This document shows positions 1,567-14,652 of a stretch of 23,382 nt of DNA, in pieces. The translations under genes and the position numbers were made by a program. The notes under the pieces were generated by a model. It worked only from the letters and a program-made list of their open reading frames with translations. It did not search any database and was not told the origin of the DNA. The stretch covers positions 1-23,382 of the IMG/VR virus record IMGVR_UViG_3300009507_001408; one strand, written 5' to 3'. The first letter of the stretch is position 1, and the number at the start of each line of letters is the position of its first letter. This DNA is from a virus.

Positions 1567-2730
1567 ATGAAAGATAGAGTAGTTGTTACTGGTGTAGGTT
1601 TGGTGGACACCCTTGGAACATATCCGATGGAGTGTTTTGAGAATATGATTGATGATCATTATGAACCACCTATTGACTTTGAGACTGACGTAGAATCCCT
1701 TAAAGGGAATAAGTGTTTTAGAGCACGTGAAGTAAACTATGTGATTCCCGAGGGGATTTGTAAAACTACCCATGCTTCACTATCTACCGCATCTAAGAAT
1801 GCTATTCATGTTGTGCAACAGGCAATAGGTGACATTGACAGTACTGATGTTGCGGTGGTTTTCAGTTCGGTTGCTATTAAACAAGAGACTATGGCAAAAC
1901 CTTTCCTTGATAAGATGATAGGTGGCAGACGTTTGTCCCCCCGCAGTGGAGTGCAGTACCTAAAAGACTTTACTGTAGGAATGCTCAGTCAAGTGTTTGA
2001 TTTCCGTGGTGCGTGTGTCAGTATGGATGCCGCCTGTGCGACTGGTCTGTATTCTATTGACTACGGGATGCATTTACTAGATACCCATAAGTTTGTTGTT
2101 GTGGGTGGTACTGATAGTCCCGCAGTAGATGACAACATGTTTATCTTCAGTCAGTTGGGTGCACTTGGTACCGAGTCAAGACCCTTTGATAAGAAACGTG
2201 ATGGGTTCATTATGGGTGAGGGTGCAGGTGCCATGTTATTAGAGAAAGAGTCTGATGCACGAGCACGAGGTGCCAACATCATTGGATACATCAACACCGT
2301 ATCTCATCATACGGATGGAGCACTTGGTAAACCTACTGCACCAGACCCTAACTGTACAGGATCACTTGCGGCAATGCGATCCGTAACAAATGATTCTGCG
2401 GGAGAAATTGCCTTTGTAAATGCTCATGGCACATCAACTCCATTGGGAGATGACCTAGAGTATAATGCAATTCAACAAGTTGTGCCTAGTGTACCCGTGA
2501 TTAGTTTCAAGTCAAAGGTGGGACACTCTCTCGCGGCAAGTGGTATCAACGAAACAATCTATAGTTTGATGTGTCTTTACAACGGAGTGGTACCGAAGAA
2601 CTTCAATATAGATGACTGTGATCACGAATTTGTCTATAAATACAAGAAACAGGTTAAAGATAAGTTTGCGATGAAGAATTCATTTGCCTTTGGAGGCAGG
2701 TCTTCTTCATTGATATTGGAGGTGGAATGA
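1567..2730 (+). CDS. Beta-ketoacyl-ACP synthase (KAS I/II, FabB/FabF-like)
   Basis: A 387-residue condensing enzyme of the thiolase fold, which extends acyl-ACP with malonyl-ACP in fatty-acid synthesis. All catalytic residues of the family are present: nucleophile C157 in MDAACATG, H287 in NAHGTSTPLGD, K315 and H320 in FKSKVGHSLAASG, and the C-terminal NSFAFGGRSSS loop. N-terminal VVVTGVGLVDTLG matches the family start. Length is slightly under bacterial FabF (about 410). It begins two bases after the DUF3310 stop and overlaps the desaturase by 4 bases (ATGA), so the two are probably translated together. No acyl carrier protein is visible here, so it would have to use host ACP. A complete KAS in a phage is unusual; a role in polyketide-type chemistry cannot be excluded. 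Confidence 0.9.
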   Translation: MKDRVVVTGVGLVDTLGTYPMECFENMIDDHYEPPIDFETDVESLKGNKCFRAREVNYVIPEGICKTTHASLSTASKNAIHVVQQAIGDIDSTDVAVVFSSVAIKQETMAKPFLDKMIGGRRLSPRSGVQYLKDFTVGMLSQVFDFRGACVSMDAACATGLYSIDYGMHLLDTHKFVVVGGTDSPAVDDNMFIFSQLGALGTESRPFDKKRDGFIMGEGAGAMLLEKESDARARGANIIGYINTVSHHTDGALGKPTAPDPNCTGSLAAMRSVTNDSAGEIAFVNAHGTSTPLGDDLEYNAIQQVVPSVPVISFKSKVGHSLAASGINETIYSLMCLYNGVVPKNFNIDDCDHEFVYKYKKQVKDKFAMKNSFAFGGRSSSLILEVE

Positions 2731-3443
2731 TAACAAATTGGATAGGTAAAAGAACTGGATACGTGCATACGACATTCTATATGTTGTGTGTACTTCTTGC
2801 TATTGTATGGTTGCCATCATACTCTATTATAGAGTTGTCAGTCTGGTTTGTGCCTTTCTATTTACTCGCGGCATATTTAATCTCAGGATTCCAACATAGG
2901 TATTGTTCACATAAGTCTTGGCAACCAAGTCTTAGAGTTGAATCTATTAGTGCGTTTCTTTGTGCCGCATTCTTATTGACACCATCTATGGGGTGGGCAT
3001 CTACTCATAGGACTCATCATAAACACACTGATACCGATAAAGACCCACATGGGAATGCTCATAGTATTCTACGTAACTTCTTAGTATTCAATTACCCACC
3101 CAAGATGACTCTGATTCCTAGATGGATGCTTAGACATCCTGTCTATCAACTCCAAGCAAAGTACTACTGGGAGACGGGTATTGTGGTAGGTGCATTGATG
3201 TTCTTGGTAGGATTAGGAACCGCATGGGTGTCATTCATTGCATTCTGTTATATCTTCCAAGTCACTTTGAATATGATCGGTCATCTGAATAGGAATCCAG
3301 TGAACAATACTATAGGTGCGATAATGTGGGGAGGTGAGTTATATCATAAGAACCACCATGACAAACCTAGTCTATCGCAGTTTGGTTTATTTGACGCAAC
3401 ATACCACTTTTTTATTAAACACTTAGATACTAGAGGTAAATGA
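2727..3443 (+). CDS. Membrane fatty-acid (acyl-CoA/acyl-lipid) desaturase
   Basis: A 238-residue integral membrane protein with the three histidine boxes of the stearoyl-CoA/DesC-type desaturases that bind the di-iron centre: HRYCSH (57-62), HRTHH (94-98) and HKNHH (207-211). There are hydrophobic segments near 15-30, 36-55, 72-88 and 150-182. The NMIGHLNRNPVNN stretch before the third box is also typical. It is shorter than most bacterial homologues (about 270-320), mainly at the N-terminus, but keeps all metal ligands. Desaturases need electrons from a ferredoxin or cytochrome b5; none is encoded nearby. The ATGA overlap with the ketosynthase implies a joint role in changing the host's membrane acyl chains (inference). 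Confidence 0.9.
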   Translation: MITNWIGKRTGYVHTTFYMLCVLLAIVWLPSYSIIELSVWFVPFYLLAAYLISGFQHRYCSHKSWQPSLRVESISAFLCAAFLLTPSMGWASTHRTHHKHTDTDKDPHGNAHSILRNFLVFNYPPKMTLIPRWMLRHPVYQLQAKYYWETGIVVGALMFLVGLGTAWVSFIAFCYIFQVTLNMIGHLNRNPVNNTIGAIMWGGELYHKNHHDKPSLSQFGLFDATYHFFIKHLDTRGK

Positions 3444-4381: not shown

Positions 4382-4552
4382 ATGCAAAAGGCAAAGAGAA
4401 TAAAGTCTCGTCATGCACGAGTACTGTTTGATAAGGACAGTCCTTTTACCCACAAAGTGGTACCAGACAAGACGAAATACAAAAGAAAATCCAAATATCC
4501 TCGCAATCGCGGGGATTTTTTTTACCTTTTAGAAGTCAATCTGTATAAATAA
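4382..4552 (+). CDS. Small basic protein, 56 residues, terminator inside the gene
   Basis: Starts MQKAKRIKSRHARVLFDKDS and is strongly basic through KTKYKRKSKYPRNRG. AGGAG (4371-4375) lies six bases before the ATG. The last third of the frame is formed by an intrinsic terminator (4498-4523) whose T-run encodes the FF of DFFYLLEVNLYK. The gene could therefore be only partly transcribed past its own end, or the real product may be shorter in other strains. Possibly a small nucleic-acid-binding protein from its charge; that is inference. Confidence 0.5.
   Translation: MQKAKRIKSRHARVLFDKDSPFTHKVVPDKTKYKRKSKYPRNRGDFFYLLEVNLYK
4498..4523 (+). terminator. Rho-independent terminator
   Basis: A 7-bp stem (TCCTCGC with GCGGGGA, one G-T pair, four-base loop) followed by eight T residues at 4516-4523. 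It separates the sigma70-driven small genes from the envelope gene chain that starts at 4559. Confidence 0.85.
4544..4551 (+). promoter_or_regulatory. Possible T4-type late promoter for the curli/cyclase gene chain
   Basis: TATAAATA between the terminator and ATG 4559. No sigma70 -35/-10 pair is visible in this gap, so it is the best candidate for driving 4559-10385. T4 spacing would place the start around 4557, giving a nearly leaderless transcript for the first gene, which is odd and lowers confidence. Confidence 0.4.
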
Positions 4553-4558
4553 AGGTGT

Positions 4559-4837
4559 ATGGATATATTCACCCTAATAAACGAATTGGGGTTTCCTATC
4601 GCATCCGCCTTAATCGGTGGTTTCTTTATGTTTCTGACACTGAAATATATCATGGATGGCGTAATCGGGCAAGTGAAGTCGTTACGAGGTATAGTGGGAA
4701 GTCTTGATAATCGTGTAAAAACTATGAACCATGATATGGTTCGTATGGATACTACTATGTGTGTTGTTCTGGGAATAAGACCAGACCTCAATCGTATTAG
4801 TAGAGCAGACGGTAAAGAAGATGCAAGGAGAGATTGA
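4559..4837 (+). CDS. Small membrane protein, holin-like layout, paralogue of the one at 5315
   Basis: 92 residues: a short N-terminus, one hydrophobic helix at about 11-30 (GFPIASALIGGFFMFLTLKYI), then a soluble helical tail with SLDNRVKTMNHDMVRMD. The same plan and motif order (FGFPI..A, then a heptad-like D.R...ND..R) recur in the protein at 5315, so the pair looks like diverged duplicates. The layout resembles small phage membrane proteins of the BhlA/UviB type, some of which act as holins, but similarity is in architecture only. AAGG lies just upstream of ATG 4559. It heads the gene chain that leads into csgF and csgG. Confidence 0.6.
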   Translation: MDIFTLINELGFPIASALIGGFFMFLTLKYIMDGVIGQVKSLRGIVGSLDNRVKTMNHDMVRMDTTMCVVLGIRPDLNRISRADGKEDARRD

Positions 4838-5313
4838 TGGTTGACCCCTTTACGGCAGTAGCAACAGCAACTGCGGCATTCAATGGTATCAAGAAAATGG
4901 TTGAGGCAGGACAGAATATAGAGTCCACCTTCGGTCAGATTGGTAAGTGGTACGGAGCAGTTGCTGACTTCAATGAGGCAAAGAGACAAGCAGAGAACCC
5001 ACCACTTTTTAAGAAATTGGTAAACAAGACTTCGGTTGAAGAGGAGGCAATGAATGCCTTCATTCAAGAGAAGAAGATAAAAGAACAAGAAACACAATTG
5101 CGTGAACTGTTACTTTACATGTACGGACCTAGTGCGTACAGTGAGTTGACTCAAATGCGTAGAGAGATAAGGGACAAACGAGAGCAGACGGTATACGCAC
5201 AAGCACGTAGACAGAAAGCATTCTTTTGGAATGCACTCGGTTGGAGTTCCGTAGTAGTTCTTGCCTATGGATTCTGGTATATGGTGATGCTAATTGTAAA
5301 CGCAAGTCAGTGA
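4837..5313 (+). CDS. Tail-anchored helical membrane protein, probably a phage structural or envelope protein
   Basis: 158 residues starting at ATG 4837 (AAGGAG at 4825-4830), overlapping the previous stop by one base. The N-terminus MVDPFTAVATATAAFNGIKK is a glycine/alanine-rich helix; the middle (residues about 40-130) is charged and coiled-coil-like, with VEEEAMNAFIQEKKIKEQE and MYGPSAYSELTQMRREIR. A C-terminal transmembrane helix at about 132-154 (NALGWSSVVVLAYGFWYMVM) anchors it. I recall similar unnamed proteins in marine T4-like phages but cannot name a function. Placed between the two paralogous small membrane proteins, it may form a complex with them (inference). Confidence 0.6.
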   Translation: MVDPFTAVATATAAFNGIKKMVEAGQNIESTFGQIGKWYGAVADFNEAKRQAENPPLFKKLVNKTSVEEEAMNAFIQEKKIKEQETQLRELLLYMYGPSAYSELTQMRREIRDKREQTVYAQARRQKAFFWNALGWSSVVVLAYGFWYMVMLIVNASQ

Positions 5314-5314
5314 T

Positions 5315-5563
5315 GTGGAAATAGTAGACACGGTAAAAGATTTTGGTTTTCCTATAGTTGCGGCAGTTGGTATGTTGTACATGATTTACTTCGTCTGGAA
5401 AACAATTACCAGTGAAGTGGAAAAGAATCTAGAAGAAACGATGACCACCCTAATAGGACTAATTGACCGCATTAGAATGCTTGATAATGATATAATACGA
5501 TTGCAACAGAAATTAGATACTGCAATTGAAATGAGGAGAAAAAAAGATGAAGAAGAGACATAG
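5315..5563 (+). CDS. Small membrane protein, paralogue of the one at 4559
   Basis: 82 residues from GTG 5315, one base after the previous stop codon. A hydrophobic helix at about 11-29 (FGFPIVAAVGMLYMIYFVWK) is followed by a coiled-coil-like tail (IDRIRMLDNDIIRLQQKLD) ending in basic and acidic clusters. It shares its plan with the 4559 protein. Possible holin or inner-membrane scaffold; not proven. The end overlaps the csgF gene by 17 bases, which couples it to the curli genes. Confidence 0.6.
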   Translation: MEIVDTVKDFGFPIVAAVGMLYMIYFVWKTITSEVEKNLEETMTTLIGLIDRIRMLDNDIIRLQQKLDTAIEMRRKKDEEET

Positions 5564-6032
5564 TTGGATACAACTCCTTGAGGGTATGTCACTGACAGTT
5601 GCGATGATTATGATGTTACTCGTAATCACAGAACTATCATTTGCCGCACCCATAGAGCACAAATTCAAATCCCCTTCCTTCAGTGGTATTAATCAATCTA
5701 GTCACTATCTTACCATTGAGAATCAAGAGACCTCTCGGAAAGACGCGATCAAACAAGAATTGAAAGACCTCCAAGAACAATTGGAGAGGGATGCCGAGAA
5801 CACGACTCTGGCAAAGTTTATTAGGAATGTTGAAAGTAGAATTTATTCTACATTGTCCAGACAAATAGTAGATGGTATGTTTGGAGAGAATCCTTCTACT
5901 ACTGGTGAGTTCAACATAGAAGGAACGGGTATATCGTATGTCACTGATGGTGATGTTGTGATATTGACAATTACAGACGAGGATGGCAGTGTTACGACTA
6001 TTACTATTCCCCTTGGTGATTTTGGTATCTAG
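5547..6032 (+). CDS. csgF: CsgF-like curli secretion accessory protein
   Basis: 161 residues. A long N-terminal hydrophobic segment (11-32) ends in ELSFA, a good signal-peptidase site after A33, so the mature protein begins APIEHKFKSPSFSG. This matches the start of mature CsgF (F.F.NP.FGG in E. coli), the segment that threads into the CsgG barrel. The C-terminal region (DGDVVILTITDEDGSVTTITI) matches CsgF's final beta hairpin (ITD..TG..ttI.v). Mature length of about 128 is close to E. coli CsgF (119). AGGAG at 5534-5538 precedes ATG 5547. It overlaps csgG by 44 bases, as expected for partners. Family assigned by reading the sequence, not by search. Confidence 0.8.
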   Translation: MKKRHSWIQLLEGMSLTVAMIMMLLVITELSFAAPIEHKFKSPSFSGINQSSHYLTIENQETSRKDAIKQELKDLQEQLERDAENTTLAKFIRNVESRIYSTLSRQIVDGMFGENPSTTGEFNIEGTGISYVTDGDVVILTITDEDGSVTTITIPLGDFGI

Positions 6033-6789
6033 TTGTGCTTCTCTTGGAGGAGGGGACTTTGAGATACCAACAGTGGAACAACCAGAAGTTCAGTACACTC
6101 TACTACAAGAGGAACTGGTAAATGTGGGTGTACCTGCTAGGAGACCTACGGTTGCGGTCTACCAGTTCACTGATCAGACGGGGCAGAAGAGACAAAACAG
6201 TGGGGGTGGGACTTCCTTTAGTTCTGCGGTCACTCTGGCACCAGATGTATATCTGATTCGTGCCTTGACTCGTGCGGGTAGTGGAAAATTCTTTAAGGTT
6301 GTGGATCGTCAGATTCTTGACCATCTGACGAAAGAACGACAGTTAATACGTCAAACTCGTCAATCTTATGAGGGAAATGACTCTCAGAAGTTACCAGCGC
6401 TAACATTTGCTGGCATGATAATTGCAGGAGGTATAGTAGGATACGATACTTCCGTTGACACGGGTGGTGCGGGTGCCAGATATCTTGGCATAGGTACTTC
6501 TCGTGAATTTAGTATAGACACAGTTACAATCAATATACGATTGGTGTCAGTTGCTACAGGTGAGGTATTGTTGGATGTAATTTCCTCCAAGACCATACTC
6601 TCTACAGGAACAAGTGGAGATGTGTTTAGATTTATAGAACAGGGTACCGAACTGATAGAGATTGAGTCAGGTGTTACCCAAAACGAATCTGTATCTATTG
6701 CGACTCAACGTGCAATTGAGGCAGGTGTTCTAGAACTTATCTTGAGAGGAGATCAACGAGGGTTTTGGAATATAACGGGAGAGAAGTAA
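5989..6789 (+). CDS. csgG: CsgG-family outer-membrane secretion pore (lipoprotein)
   Basis: 266 residues. A lipoprotein signal peptide ends ILVSSC with C16 as the lipidated cysteine. GTG 5989 is preferred because GAGG (5979-5982) lies six bases upstream; ATG 5983 directly abuts it. CsgG features are clear: VAVYQFTDQTGQ, the GGIVGYDTSVDTGGAGARYL block with IGTSREFSID, INIRLVSVATGEVL, SKTILS, VFRFIEQG, and RGFWNI near the C-terminus, all aligning with E. coli CsgG. CsgG forms a nonameric outer-membrane channel exporting curli subunits. In the constriction loop (QKRQNSGGGTSFSSA) the Phe is kept (F77) but the E. coli Tyr51 and Asn55 positions are changed and the loop is about two residues longer. 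The pore may thus differ in selectivity. Confidence 0.93.
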   Translation: MLRLLLFPLVILVSSCASLGGGDFEIPTVEQPEVQYTLLQEELVNVGVPARRPTVAVYQFTDQTGQKRQNSGGGTSFSSAVTLAPDVYLIRALTRAGSGKFFKVVDRQILDHLTKERQLIRQTRQSYEGNDSQKLPALTFAGMIIAGGIVGYDTSVDTGGAGARYLGIGTSREFSIDTVTINIRLVSVATGEVLLDVISSKTILSTGTSGDVFRFIEQGTELIEIESGVTQNESVSIATQRAIEAGVLELILRGDQRGFWNITGEK

Positions 6790-7535
6790 TGAACGCTAGT
6801 AAAACAGGAAGTATCTTTGCTATGATGTTCGTGGTTGGTTCTGTGTATGTTTATGCAGACAATGAGATATATATTGACCAAGTAGGTAGTACCAGTGCTA
6901 TTGAAATAATTCAGGATGGTTCAGGAAACGTAGTTGGGGGTGATGAATCACAACTCGCTGCAGGCGCTCCATCTAAGTTTATACTGAATGGTAATAGCAT
7001 GGACTTTAATGTTAACATGTCCGGTAGCACTAACAAACTTTTTGGTTCAATATATGGAACTAGTACTGTTGATATTGACTTGGATGGATCAGGTAATAAT
7101 CTTGAGTTTGATGTTGACAAAGATAATACCTATGGTGCGACAGGGGGGAATTATCTGATATCAGTCACGGGTGGTAACAATGACTTAGATTTTGATTTTG
7201 GGTCAAATGATACCGCGAATGATACAGACTTTGACTTTATATTGGATGGTGATTTCAATGCCGCTGATATAAATATTGATGCGTCAAGTCTAACATTCAA
7301 CATGGATGTGATATCCGATAATAGCAATCTGGTGTATACTGGTACTGGGTATGACGGACATAGTTTTGATTTGGAAGGTTCAGGAAACTACTGGGACATT
7401 GATATAGTCCAAGAGTCTACTTTACAGTCTGACATTTTGGAGATTGATTATGAAGGATCAGGAACAAGTCAAGGTAATGCTACTATTTGTATTCACCAGT
7501 CTGATAGCGGCACCTCTAGTACATGCGGTCAGTAA
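6789..7535 (+). CDS. Secreted curlin-like, Asp/Gly/Asn-rich repeat protein
   Basis: 248 residues from ATG 6789, overlapping the csgG stop by one base (TAATG) with GGGAGAG upstream. A signal peptide (MNASKTGSIF... ending VYVYA) precedes repeated short units. The first units, IYIDQVGSTSAIEIIQDGSG, follow the curlin pattern of I.Q.G..N...Q; later units keep DGSGN/EGSGN (for example LDGSGNNLEFDV, LEGSGNYWDIDI) with many alternating Asp residues. This fits a beta-solenoid amyloid subunit like CsgA, though more acidic. The end has two cysteines (TICIHQSDSGTSSTCGQ). Right after csgF and csgG, it is the natural substrate of the pore. No CsgB, CsgE or CsgC is visible. Repeat protein is certain; curlin identity is likely but not certain. 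Confidence 0.75.
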   Translation: MNASKTGSIFAMMFVVGSVYVYADNEIYIDQVGSTSAIEIIQDGSGNVVGGDESQLAAGAPSKFILNGNSMDFNVNMSGSTNKLFGSIYGTSTVDIDLDGSGNNLEFDVDKDNTYGATGGNYLISVTGGNNDLDFDFGSNDTANDTDFDFILDGDFNAADINIDASSLTFNMDVISDNSNLVYTGTGYDGHSFDLEGSGNYWDIDIVQESTLQSDILEIDYEGSGTSQGNATICIHQSDSGTSSTCGQ

Positions 7536-8568
7536 TGACGTAGGTGCAGTGGATCGTGCAGTTGGATGGAGACAGATAGTAAGAGATGGGAAACCATTAG
7601 AACCAAGTAAAGGTGAACAAATCGTATCTGAAGATGACCTTCGTACAGGTGAGGGTCGCCTTCAGGTACAATTTGTTGATGACAGCAAACTACGTATGAC
7701 CGAACACACCCGCATTGTGATTGACAATGTGGTCTTTGACGAAGACCCAAGTAAGTCAGACTTGGCAATGACGTTCGCCCAAGGCACAGCAAGATTTGTA
7801 TCTGGACAACTGGGAAAGGTTGACCGAGAGAATATAAGACTCAAGACCCCTACCGCATCTATCGGTATCAGGGGTACAGATTTCACAGTAACAGTTGACG
7901 AATTTGGAAAGACCCTTGTGGTACTTCTACCAGATGTAAACGGTATCTCATCGGGTGAGATTATTGTTTCCACAATGACAGGGGAAGTGGTGCTCAATAA
8001 ACCCTTTGAATCTACAACGACTACTGTGATGGAGACACCCCCATCGGAACCCGCAATCCTAGACTTGACTCTGGATATGTTGAACAATATTATGATCATC
8101 AATCCTCCCAAGAAGAAACAAACTCCCGAAGAGTTTATGATTGAAATAAACGCAGATAAGAACATTAACTCATTAGATGTGGACTTCCTTGACGAAGACT
8201 TGTTGTCCGAAGAGGCACTGGAAAAAAACTATCTAGAGTTCAATGAACTTGATATGGACTACCTAGATGTTGATCTACTAGAGGATGTGTTGAATAGTTT
8301 TGATGCACTGGGAGAGGATGTACTGGAAGAACAACAGTCTAGTGGTGATTTACGTCTCAGTGGTACCGAAGAGGGGTTTGATCCTGTCACGCAGGTCGCG
8401 ACTATAATAGAGGGCGATAAGGTTACTATAGGCAGAGAGGTCAATGACAAAGTAAGAATATCGGTAGATAAGTCTTCTATGACAGTTATAAGTATAGAAC
8501 AAGACGGTAAAGAACTAGACCCCATCAAACTGAATGGTATGGACAACACGATAAATATAGTACAATGA
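7450..8568 (+). CDS. Secreted FecR-domain protein
   Basis: 372 residues. ATG 7450 is preferred (GGAG at 7439-7442, seven bases away) and gives a signal peptide MKDQEQVKVMLLFVFTSLIA ending PLVHA. The FecR domain follows at about 30-190: GWRQIVRDGKPL, GEQIVSEDDLRTGEGRLQVQ, SKLRMTEHTRIVID, MTFAQGTARFVSG, then the hallmark KTPTASIGIRGTDF and SGEIIVSTMTGEV. After a proline/lysine linker comes a Leu/Asp-rich acidic stretch (about 225-315) and a beta-rich end. FecR domains sense or relay signals in the periplasm. No transmembrane helix beyond the signal peptide is seen, so it is probably free in the periplasm, where it could meet the CHASE2 domain of the next protein (ATGA overlap). The start overlaps the curlin-like gene by 86 bases. 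Confidence 0.88.
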   Translation: MKDQEQVKVMLLFVFTSLIAAPLVHAVSNDVGAVDRAVGWRQIVRDGKPLEPSKGEQIVSEDDLRTGEGRLQVQFVDDSKLRMTEHTRIVIDNVVFDEDPSKSDLAMTFAQGTARFVSGQLGKVDRENIRLKTPTASIGIRGTDFTVTVDEFGKTLVVLLPDVNGISSGEIIVSTMTGEVVLNKPFESTTTTVMETPPSEPAILDLTLDMLNNIMIINPPKKKQTPEEFMIEINADKNINSLDVDFLDEDLLSEEALEKNYLEFNELDMDYLDVDLLEDVLNSFDALGEDVLEEQQSSGDLRLSGTEEGFDPVTQVATIIEGDKVTIGREVNDKVRISVDKSSMTVISIEQDGKELDPIKLNGMDNTINIVQ

Positions 8569-10385
8569 AAACATGGCATGTCCTCATCACACTGGGGTTG
8601 TTAGTAGGATTAAGATTTCTTGACCCCTTTCTATTAGAGAGTGCGCGACTCTCATTCTTTGATTCTCTACAGAGAAGTCAAGAGGCATCTGTGTCCGAAC
8701 AGATCGTACTGGTAGACATAGATGAGAAGACCCTAGACAAGTTTGGACAGTACCCCATCCCCCGTAAGGTTATGGCAGATGAGATTGACAAGATTGATGG
8801 CAGTATAATTGCATTCAATATCTTGTTCTCAGAAGAAGACAGGATGGGAGGTGACGAATACTTTGCAGAGATTCTATCATGGAAACAAGCAGTGGTTGCC
8901 ATCGCACCATCCAACAGAACCAACACAGACTACAGACCACCTCGTATCGGTACTGCGACATTCGGTGACAGAGATGCCGAAGATTTCCGACCATTAATGG
9001 GCGGTATGCTGTTTGCCCAACCGATCATCCATGACAATGCATTTGGTTATGGTACGATATCATCCGCACAGGATGTTGATGGTATTGTCAGAAGACAACC
9101 CCTACTAGAGAACTTTGATGGTAGACTCTATCCCGCATTTGCGTTAGATGTACTACGAGTTGCCGCAGGAGATTCATCTTACCAGATATCCACGGATGAC
9201 TATGGTATTGAATTCGTTCGTATCCCCAAGTTCAAACCAGTGCCTACAGATGCAGTCGGTAACGTTACAATCGCATACTGGAATGAGTTCAAGAGATACT
9301 CGTTCACGGAACTGGACACTATACCAGAAGGTTCAATAATCATCGTAGGAGCAACCTTTGAGGGTTCTAATGTAGTTAGTACACCAATGGGTTCTATGTA
9401 CCCCCATGACATTCAAGCAAACCTAGTCAAGACAATGATTGATGGAGTGGTACTCAAAAGACAGTCTGAATTTATTTTGTACGAGGTCTTGACAACTCTT
9501 GCACTGTGTGCTATACTCTTACTGTTGTTAACTCAGGGTACTATACCAATTTCAGGATTGGCATTTAGTGTCTTTGTGATGGGTCTATATGTCTTCGCAA
9601 CGGATACCTTTGCCACATATTACTTATTGTTTGACCCTGTGTTCCCTATACTGACTGTGGTGCTAGTATTCGCACACGGTTCCTTTGTACAGTTCTATAC
9701 ACAGTTCAAAGCAAAGCAGATGATCAAGGGACAGTTCGGTACATACCTTTCACCCGACATGGTAGATATGCTTGCCAATGATCCAAGTCTAATGAAGTTG
9801 GGTGGAGAGAAGAAGGAGATGACGTTCTTATTCATGGACATATGTGGATTCACCCCCATATCAGAACACTACAAAAACAAGGACGATGCAGAGGGTTTGG
9901 TCACATTAATTAACAATTATCTCAATGAAATGACTAATATTATCCTAAATAACGGAGGTACAATTGACAAGTATATGGGAGATTGTATCATGGCATTTTG
10001 GAATGCCCCCCTACCGTGTGAGGATCATGCGGAAATGGCAGTAAAATCCGCAATAGAGATAGAAGAGAAAACTAATGAACTTAGACGAAGATATAGTGAA
10101 CAGGGTCTACCCCCCATCAATGTTGGAACTGGCATCAATACAGGCACTTGCATTGTTGGTAATATGGGTAGTGAGTCAAGGTTTGATTATTCAGTCATCG
10201 GAGACTCCGTTAACCTTGCCGCAAGACTTGAAGCAACTGCCGCAAGAGGAGACTACCTTGAATACAAGACCATCTACTCAAGTCACACAATGGAACAACT
10301 TACAAACATTAAATCGCGACCAATAGGTACGATTAAGGTTAAGGGTAAAGATGAGGAAATTGACATCTACACGATGGATAGATGA
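8565..10385 (+). CDS. CHASE2-domain adenylate cyclase (class III, membrane receptor)
   Basis: 606 residues that would make cAMP in the host. An N-terminal membrane helix (5-20) is followed by a periplasmic CHASE2 sensor (about 25-300; VLVDIDEKTLDKFGQYPIPR, the DVDGIVRRQPLL block, and IIIVGATFEGSNVVSTPMG are typical). Three transmembrane helices follow (about 303-322, 328-345, 352-372), then a class III cyclase domain (about 415-600). Catalytic residues are intact: metal Asps D425 (LFMDICGFT) and D473, substrate-specifying K469 and D547, and transition-state N550 and R554 (IGDSVNLAARLE). The Lys/Asp pair points to ATP rather than GTP. It is the last gene of the envelope chain and overlaps the FecR gene by 4 bases. 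I know of no common phage counterpart; host acquisition is likely. Confidence 0.93.
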   Translation: MKTWHVLITLGLLVGLRFLDPFLLESARLSFFDSLQRSQEASVSEQIVLVDIDEKTLDKFGQYPIPRKVMADEIDKIDGSIIAFNILFSEEDRMGGDEYFAEILSWKQAVVAIAPSNRTNTDYRPPRIGTATFGDRDAEDFRPLMGGMLFAQPIIHDNAFGYGTISSAQDVDGIVRRQPLLENFDGRLYPAFALDVLRVAAGDSSYQISTDDYGIEFVRIPKFKPVPTDAVGNVTIAYWNEFKRYSFTELDTIPEGSIIIVGATFEGSNVVSTPMGSMYPHDIQANLVKTMIDGVVLKRQSEFILYEVLTTLALCAILLLLLTQGTIPISGLAFSVFVMGLYVFATDTFATYYLLFDPVFPILTVVLVFAHGSFVQFYTQFKAKQMIKGQFGTYLSPDMVDMLANDPSLMKLGGEKKEMTFLFMDICGFTPISEHYKNKDDAEGLVTLINNYLNEMTNIILNNGGTIDKYMGDCIMAFWNAPLPCEDHAEMAVKSAIEIEEKTNELRRRYSEQGLPPINVGTGINTGTCIVGNMGSESRFDYSVIGDSVNLAARLEATAARGDYLEYKTIYSSHTMEQLTNIKSRPIGTIKVKGKDEEIDIYTMDR

Positions 10386-13255: not shown

Positions 13256-13534
13256 ATGAAATTTGATGTAAATGATGTTGTTGCAGTAATGTGTAATAGT
13301 GGTGAATATGTAGGTAAGTTTGCCAGTGACAATGCGGATTCGGTAACAATCACTGACCCTCGCATGGTAGTAAGTACCCAAGAAGGTTTGGGATTCGCAC
13401 ATGGTATTTGTGTAACTGGTGAGGCAGATGTTAGGTCTGTTGATATCTTAAAATCAAGTATGTGTTTTGTCACTATGGTCAATGATGACTTGCGTAAAGC
13501 ATACACCAAGAACACTAGTGGTATAATTCTGTAG
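13256..13534 (+). CDS. Small beta-rich protein, possibly Sm-like
   Basis: 92 residues from ATG 13256 with AGGAGAAGG at 13240-13248; an apparent earlier GTG/ATG start at 13220 would fall inside the hairpin and is rejected. The N-terminal half (FDVNDVVAVMCNSGEYVGKF then SVTITDPRMV) has the strand-loop-strand pattern of an Sm/LSm motif (a bent sheet with a G in strand 2 and a conserved D after it). The C-terminus ends KNTSGIIL. Many phages carry unnamed proteins of this type. RNA binding is inference from fold resemblance. Confidence 0.65.
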   Translation: MKFDVNDVVAVMCNSGEYVGKFASDNADSVTITDPRMVVSTQEGLGFAHGICVTGEADVRSVDILKSSMCFVTMVNDDLRKAYTKNTSGIIL

Positions 13535-14652
13535 TGAGTAGAATTCTTTGTATAGACTATGGCATGTCAAACTTTCACAATCTGGTGGAGTTGGCACACG
13601 ATGGTCATACAGTGTTTACTACTGATAATTCCGCGAAGTCGTATTACGATTCGTTCGGCATCACGGTTGTTGATGCCGAACACACTTCACGACAATCCTA
13701 TCTTGAATGGTTTCTGAGTGACAATCAGATTGACACCATTCTTTATATGAGTCCCTATGTCAATATACCAGATAATTGGAATATTGATGTCATTGGTCTA
13801 AACGAACGAAGTGCTCATCTAGAGACTCGTAAACTCTGGTGTCGCAGACAGATCGGAAAACTGGGAGTCAAACTTCCAGTGCTACTGGATGACATTCAAG
13901 TACCATGTGTTGTCAAACCCAACAAGACCCACCACGATGCGGTCTACTGCACGTTTGTTGTACTGGATAGTACGGCAGAGCAGTACGTTCAAGATTGGTG
14001 GATACCCAAGGGTCATCCGTACTATGTTGAAGAATATTTGGATGGCACGGAGGTCAACATTGAATTTGTTGTATCTGGTGGTAAGTGGTCTATCCAACAC
14101 TGTCAAGAAAGCACTGGAGAGAATGTCGCAAAGATCGCGGGTAATTATTCTCACTTTGCCAAGTATGTGCAGTACGGTGAGTTGTCTGATGACAACCGTG
14201 AACTGTGTATTGAAAACGCGACCAAGATTCTGGATTGGGTCGCGACACTGGGTGGTCAGTTCCAAGGGCAGATAACAGGAATGATAAAGGATGGCGAATG
14301 GTACTTCCTTGAGATCAACTCTCGTCTTGCCACTCCCAATAGTCTACCTATCTTTGTGAGAGGGTATGAGTATCTAGAGTCTCTGTCTAGTGGTAAACCA
14401 GAGATACTTGGAGATGCCATCTATATGGCAGATGTTGAGAAGATCGTGGTACGTCCTCGGTTTCCTGACTCGGTCTACCCCTTTCATCTACATGAGAAGT
14501 ATGGGGTATCTGTGCCGTGCGGACTGGATATTGTTGATGATGAGTACCAAGTTGCCCGTGAATTTGAAGGAATTGTGATTATTGATGACCATATACCCCC
14601 TGATTTCGTAAAAGAATTTGAAAATAATTCACAATTTTTCGTAAGTCATTGA
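13534..14652 (+). CDS. ATP-grasp enzyme (PurD / carbamoyl-phosphate-synthase-like)
   Basis: 372 residues from GTG 13534, overlapping the previous stop by one base, with only a weak ribosome-binding site. The order fits an ATP-grasp ligase: an N-terminal Rossmann-like part (RILCIDYGMSNFHNLVELA), GLNERSAHLETRKLWCRRQI, the ATP-binding strand VPCVVKPNKTHHDAVY, hinge VEEYLDGTEVNIEFVV, and the metal-binding end GMIKDGEWYFLEINSRLATP (E and N before R). Resemblance is closest to glycinamide ribonucleotide synthetase (PurD), but the residues that bind the purine intermediate are not clear, so it may ligate another acid and amine. The substrate is unknown. Confidence 0.7.
   Translation: MSRILCIDYGMSNFHNLVELAHDGHTVFTTDNSAKSYYDSFGITVVDAEHTSRQSYLEWFLSDNQIDTILYMSPYVNIPDNWNIDVIGLNERSAHLETRKLWCRRQIGKLGVKLPVLLDDIQVPCVVKPNKTHHDAVYCTFVVLDSTAEQYVQDWWIPKGHPYYVEEYLDGTEVNIEFVVSGGKWSIQHCQESTGENVAKIAGNYSHFAKYVQYGELSDDNRELCIENATKILDWVATLGGQFQGQITGMIKDGEWYFLEINSRLATPNSLPIFVRGYEYLESLSSGKPEILGDAIYMADVEKIVVRPRFPDSVYPFHLHEKYGVSVPCGLDIVDDEYQVAREFEGIVIIDDHIPPDFVKEFENNSQFFVSH

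Follow-up and report, generated by a model that had tools for sequence, protein, structure and literature searches.

The window analysed here, a 23,382-base IMG/VR virus record taken in full, carries on its plus strand a compact run of genes (approximately 4559-10385) that begins directly downstream of a hairpin which resembles a terminator and has a T run behind it (4497..4516, +). On the 3' side of this hairpin lies TATAAATA (4544..4551, +), a candidate promoter of the T4 late type situated 7 nt 5' of the module's first ATG. The first gene, sm1 (4559..4837, +; 92 aa, phrog_18771), is followed by sm2 (4837..5313, +; 158 aa), which encodes a coiled-coil-like protein with a C-terminal hydrophobic segment and is limited to some close relatives of the window, and by sm3 (5315..5563, +; 82 aa, GTG start). 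Next come CsgF (5547..6032, +), the outer-membrane pore lipoprotein CsgG (5983..6789, +), a curlin-like repeat protein (6789..7535, +), a FecR-domain protein (7450..8568, +) and a CHASE2 sensor combined with a class III cyclase (8565..10385, +), and a second late-promoter-like site, GATAAATA (8550..8557, +), stands 7 nt 5' of the cyclase ATG. From sm3 through the cyclase all neighbouring genes overlap: CsgF and CsgG share 50 nt, the CsgG stop overlaps the curlin ATG at 6789 (a TTG at 6765 is only a mechanical ORF start), and the FecR stop overlaps the cyclase start. A sequence-only reading of this DNA had described CsgF, CsgG and the curlin-like protein as one overlapping operon; this three-gene core agrees with ours in coordinates and strand, but the extent assigned to it was too narrow, and the FecR-domain protein, the CHASE2-cyclase, the upstream pair of membrane proteins and the late promoter had all been missed.

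Flanking genes in the window encode ThyX, a ketoacyl synthase, a desaturase, a PD-(D/E)XK nuclease and a cytidylyltransferase-like protein. Because of this setting, and because a T4 portal gene was found in 8/8 long module-bearing records tested (101-149 kb), the window is placed among T4-like marine myophages (Kyanoviridae-type), in line with the earlier view that the module sits among phage genes. The ketoacyl synthase (FabF-like) gene adjoins the fatty-acid desaturase gene at 1567-3443; freshwater pelagimyophages without curli genes have been reported to carry lipid genes of this type (PMC7029224). An ATP-grasp-like protein, slightly under the Pfam cut-off, is encoded at 13534-14652, and searches of the window returned neither Rfam matches nor tRNA genes.

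By profile, the identities of both secretion components are certain. CsgG matches PF03783 with an E of 1.9e-45 and the solved CsgG in the PDB with an E of 6e-42, it bears the lipobox-like sequence LVSSC, and at its constriction Phe56 of the E. coli protein is retained, whereas the positions of Tyr51 and Asn55 are changed. CsgF matches nearly the full length of PF10614 above the cut-off (E 6e-17), and its mature N-terminus, KFKSPSFSG, aligns weakly (E 0.28) with that of the solved CsgF, FQFRNPNFGG. CsgC, CsgD and CsgE were not found in the ORFs scanned. A 1.5-kb record filed as a Salmonella phage (OR851715.1, L005) also encodes, at 295-957, a CsgG 37% identical to that of the window.

Identification of the third component relies on its repeats and its relatives. 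The curlin-like protein contains a signal peptide together with six units of the form hydrophobic-x-[hydrophobic/Q/D]-x-G-x-x-N, where shuffles of the same composition contain 0.36 on average and reached six in 0 of 20,000 trials; across 32 relatives 15 columns are invariant, those holding Q, G and N in the first repeats included. In a profile search the window protein itself did not match the Pfam curlin model, whereas 10 of the 13 members of its alignment did so weakly, and syntenic homologues from HTVC008M (gp018), Melnitz and contig L066 exceeded the curated Pfam cut-off. Of the claims put forward in the sequence-only reading, that of a phage-borne curli secretion module holds, with CsgF and CsgG both recovered by the profile search that it had proposed and curlin repeats present in the protein and its relatives. 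The protein is degenerate, Q being retained chiefly in the terminal repeats and the core being acidic. Its AlphaFold2 model (mean pLDDT 80) found no Foldseek match in the PDB at E <= 0.001 (best E about 0.1); when aligned by VIA-align with the top Foldseek chains it groups with beta-helical and solenoid proteins (best Z 16.9), and a beta-solenoid is the predicted fold. A second curlin gene, placed between those for FecR and the cyclase, occurs in 32 of the 49 contigs that were anchored on the cyclase and reach at least 4.7 kb upstream of it; profile searches detected none in the close clade of the window. Since the window curlin is degenerate and its clade lacks the second one, nucleation would have to differ from that in E. 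coli. In HTVC008M the second curlin, gp018 (L002, 8534-9859), is annotated only as 'hypothetical' and combines a PA14 domain with CsgB-like repeats, an arrangement that fits an adhesive role and makes it a possible adhesin tip.

The genes preceding CsgF have been labelled 'histidine kinases' (PMC9599517). Members of the sm1/sm3 group are proteins of about 90 aa (82-92 aa in the window), in which an amphipathic helix accompanies a single hydrophobic stretch near the N-terminus. By profile comparison sm1 and sm3 are paralogues (hhalign probability 98.8). A search of 27 members at E up to 1 returned no Pfam kinase domain, so that the kinase identity was rejected. A holin family, phrog_4898, is weakly matched by 18/27 of them, sm3 included, with a best E of 3.7e-5, a similarity that could suit any protein with one transmembrane segment and an amphipathic helix. 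The relabelling applies to the present phage group and not to the podophage versions; in the podophage record MW574966 no curli gene is annotated within the first 45 kb. In a single contig, L066, the sm pair lies on the opposite strand, after the cyclase.

The label of 'FecR regulator' also needs revision. The protein matches PF04773 (E 6e-12) and its model superimposes on PupR (Z 14.8, rmsd 2.5 over 132 residues). An N-terminal hydrophobic helix (residues 2-20) leads directly into the extracytoplasmic domain, and no cytoplasmic anti-sigma domain precedes the membrane segment; the protein is not an anti-sigma factor. Its best NCBIfam matches are the surface lipoproteins Lsa33 and LipL45. The predicted layout runs from a signal peptide through the FecR fold and a low-confidence acidic linker to a conserved beta domain (pLDDT 83-90) that ends, in nearly all members, in I-x-I-x-Q. 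A search with the whole model gave no clear fold match for this C-terminal domain; a match of the model to a surface-anchoring domain (5ix9) was set aside, as it falls in the N-terminal half (residues 28-127, Z 7.1) rather than in this tail and may reflect no more than a common arrangement, and a structural tie of the tail to curlin is suggestive only. The cyclase matches PF05226 (1.6e-38) and PF00211 (2.8e-19), and its class III catalytic motifs are intact.

How firmly do these parts belong together? Scans of IMG/VR contigs recovered 151 relatives of CsgG and at least 598 of the cyclase. CsgF, CsgG, curlin, FecR and sm3 accompany the cyclase in 49/49 of the contigs anchored on it that have 4.7 kb or more of sequence before it, and sm1 does so in 47/49; around CsgG, in contigs with room, CsgF, curlin, FecR and sm1 are present in 37/37 and the cyclase in 34/37, many of the contigs counted in this way being related, so that these are not independent events. 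The curli genes, FecR and the cyclase thus act as one block in phage contigs, and in no contig examined did the FecR/CHASE2-cyclase pair occur without the exporter, a strict linkage that is a fresh contribution of this analysis. Among 754 alpha- and gammaproteobacterial genomes, a sparse sample searched with phage-derived profiles, CsgF matches occurred in 13; in the neighbourhoods examined CsgG was present and curlin frequently so, whereas FecR, cyclase and sm genes were all missing, and a bacterial source of the whole block was therefore set aside. Because FecR genes do stand beside CHASE2-cyclase genes in alphaproteobacteria (4/30 loci examined), the block in phages seems to have been put together from two bacterial modules and phage genes. 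Phage-type curli modules also turned up on short contigs (L086-L095, L100) in MAGs assigned to Maricaulis, Flavobacteriaceae, Synechococcus, Pirellulales, Rhodobacteraceae and Pelagibacter; sm genes accompany the modules in these apparent bacterial carriers, which have the look of phage DNA binned by mistake, and misbinning of this kind would give false bacterial counts of type VIII secretion systems.

The timing of expression may be read from the upstream region. The T4 late promoter is an 8-bp TATA box with its first base at -13 (PMC2988020), of which NATAAATA is the cyanophage form (PMC2984593). NATAAATA occurs no more than 80 nt from the start of sm1 in 62/80 distinct upstreams, and before the first gene in 20/29 after dereplication to one representative per 80% CsgG identity, as against 3.1% (40 nt) to 8.9% (160 nt) before other genes of the same contigs. 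The inner genes of the module practically lack it (sm3 1/81, CsgG 0/102, FecR 0/92), and it precedes the cyclase in 23/103 upstreams. Since a motif of the T4 late type precedes the first gene, the module is probably expressed late in infection; the motif is evidence for late expression, short of proof. Many exact copies of TATAAATA stop 5 nt short of an ATG (27 module-first genes and 12 others; motif sites were noted in the window at 4544-4559 and 8550-8565, in L002, L008, L015, L066 and elsewhere). If the spacing is that of T4, transcription would then begin at the start codon itself, and late mRNAs in these phages are predicted to be leaderless. Late-promoter prediction had failed in pelagimyophages in the 2020 study (PMC7029224), and promoters go unmentioned in the 2022 module paper (PMC9599517).

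The module itself is a further case, real and well preserved, of the published pelagiphage curli module. CsgF/CsgG operons in phages were described by Zaragoza-Solas 2020 (PMC7029224), and Wittmers 2022 described the whole module, in which curlin repeat proteins, FecR and cyclase join the pore and its chaperone, along with its transfer from one phage family to another and its expression as seen in metatranscriptomes (PMC9599517); the earlier supposition that only single CsgG genes had been annotated in phages was thus mistaken. Defence against superinfection and capture of siblings have likewise been proposed already (PMC9599517, PMC7029224), and in the later literature we found no work testing the function of the module. 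With the pelagiphage versions the window shares the T4-like marine setting, high conservation and the order of small gene(s), CsgF, CsgG, CsgA/B, FecR, an optional further CsgA/B and cyclase, the same gene order being present in cultured HTVC008M and Melnitz. It differs in that its clade lacks the second CsgA/B (frequent, though not universal, in pelagiphages), that the genes it carries in place of the 'histidine kinases' contain no kinase domain, and that the late-promoter motif is unreported there; with a G+C of 42%, against 34% for the HTVC008M locus, the window phage possibly has another host. The CsgF, CsgG, curlin, FecR and cyclase genes of the Methylophilales phage Melnitz are syntenic with those of the window, its CsgG being 39.5% identical. 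Buchholz 2022 states that csgA and csgB are missing in Melnitz (PMC9004378); the GenBank record (MZ577097.1, L003) annotates two curlin repeat proteins, at 6830-7549 and 8608-9624, contrary to that statement. Compared with the csg operons of E. coli (type VIII secretion), CsgG, CsgF and curlin-type repeats are held in common, whereas FecR and the CHASE2-cyclase are added and the curlin repeats are weakly conserved; bacterial FecR and CHASE2-cyclase pairs, although similarly adjoining, lie apart from the CsgF loci examined, in contrast to the phage pair, which is joined to the secretion operon. What is new here is the late-promoter motif, the two relabelled parts, the variant without a second curlin and the linkage of cyclase to exporter.

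On balance we think it fairly probable that the locus equips the phage with a type VIII (curli-type) module for secretion and fibre formation, organised as one translationally coupled and late-transcribed operon, its most likely product, judging from the sequence, being a curlin fibre displayed on infected cells late in infection. CsgF, CsgG, FecR and the curlin-like protein would reach the periplasm by way of the host Sec system. CsgG would form the outer-membrane pore and CsgF its cap; the curlin-like protein would leave through this pore and fold on the surface as a beta-solenoid able to stack into a fibre. FecR and the CHASE2-cyclase are probably an envelope-sensing pair that would report assembly via a cyclic nucleotide, a readout that requires a receptor. 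Acting in the last phase of infection, the fibre would most simply hold cells together or mask receptors, and progeny might then encounter fewer competitors or more hosts. Against this model speak cultures infected with Melnitz, in which no clumping was seen (PMC9004378), together with the degenerate curlin of the window, the missing second curlin gene of its clade and the CsgE gate, not found among the ORFs scanned.

Other explanations compete with this one. Buchholz 2022 favoured lysis as the task of the Melnitz CsgGF pore (PMC9004378), and by extension the pore could have been repurposed for release, opening the outer membrane late in infection with the holin-like sm1/sm3, the curlin-like protein serving as plug or regulator. 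The late-promoter motif before the first gene, an sm1/sm3-type gene beside the pore in nearly every contig, the weak holin matches of the sm family, the gate protein not found and the changed Tyr51 of the constriction would all suit such a role, which we regard as possible but rather unlikely, given how weak and unspecific the holin similarity is and that a curlin repeat protein and FecR/cyclase, unneeded by a simple lysis pore, are retained in nearly every complete locus. Unlikely, too, is a late surface organelle in which fibre exporter, envelope sensor (FecR and CHASE2-cyclase) and holin-like pair are combined, so that fibre assembly or pore opening would be coupled to lysis timing.

An open CsgG pore for uptake of nutrients or macromolecules during infection has also been proposed (PMC7029224, PMC9599517); the altered constriction and the failure to find CsgE among the ORFs scanned agree with it, but the late-promoter motif opposes a nutrient role throughout infection, and the secreted curlin-like protein and CsgF would be left unexplained, so that we hold this to be quite improbable. 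It is scarcely credible that the locus is mis-assembled or a bacterial curli operon: CsgF/CsgG/curlin operons do occur in bacteria, but FecR, cyclase and sm genes, absent from the sampled bacterial CsgF neighbourhoods, are present in more than 100 viral contigs, module-bearing contigs of 101-149 kb carry the T4 portal, and the phage-type hits in bacterial MAGs, with their sm genes, have the appearance of misbinned phage contigs.

Curli modules are carried by well over 100 marine T4-like phage contigs. The corrected 'histidine kinase' and 'FecR regulator' labels alter what should be tested, and the FecR/CHASE2-cyclase pair suggests that these phages bring their own second-messenger sensor of the envelope. 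The conserved late-promoter motif, if confirmed, would limit the options to functions exerted in the last phase of infection.
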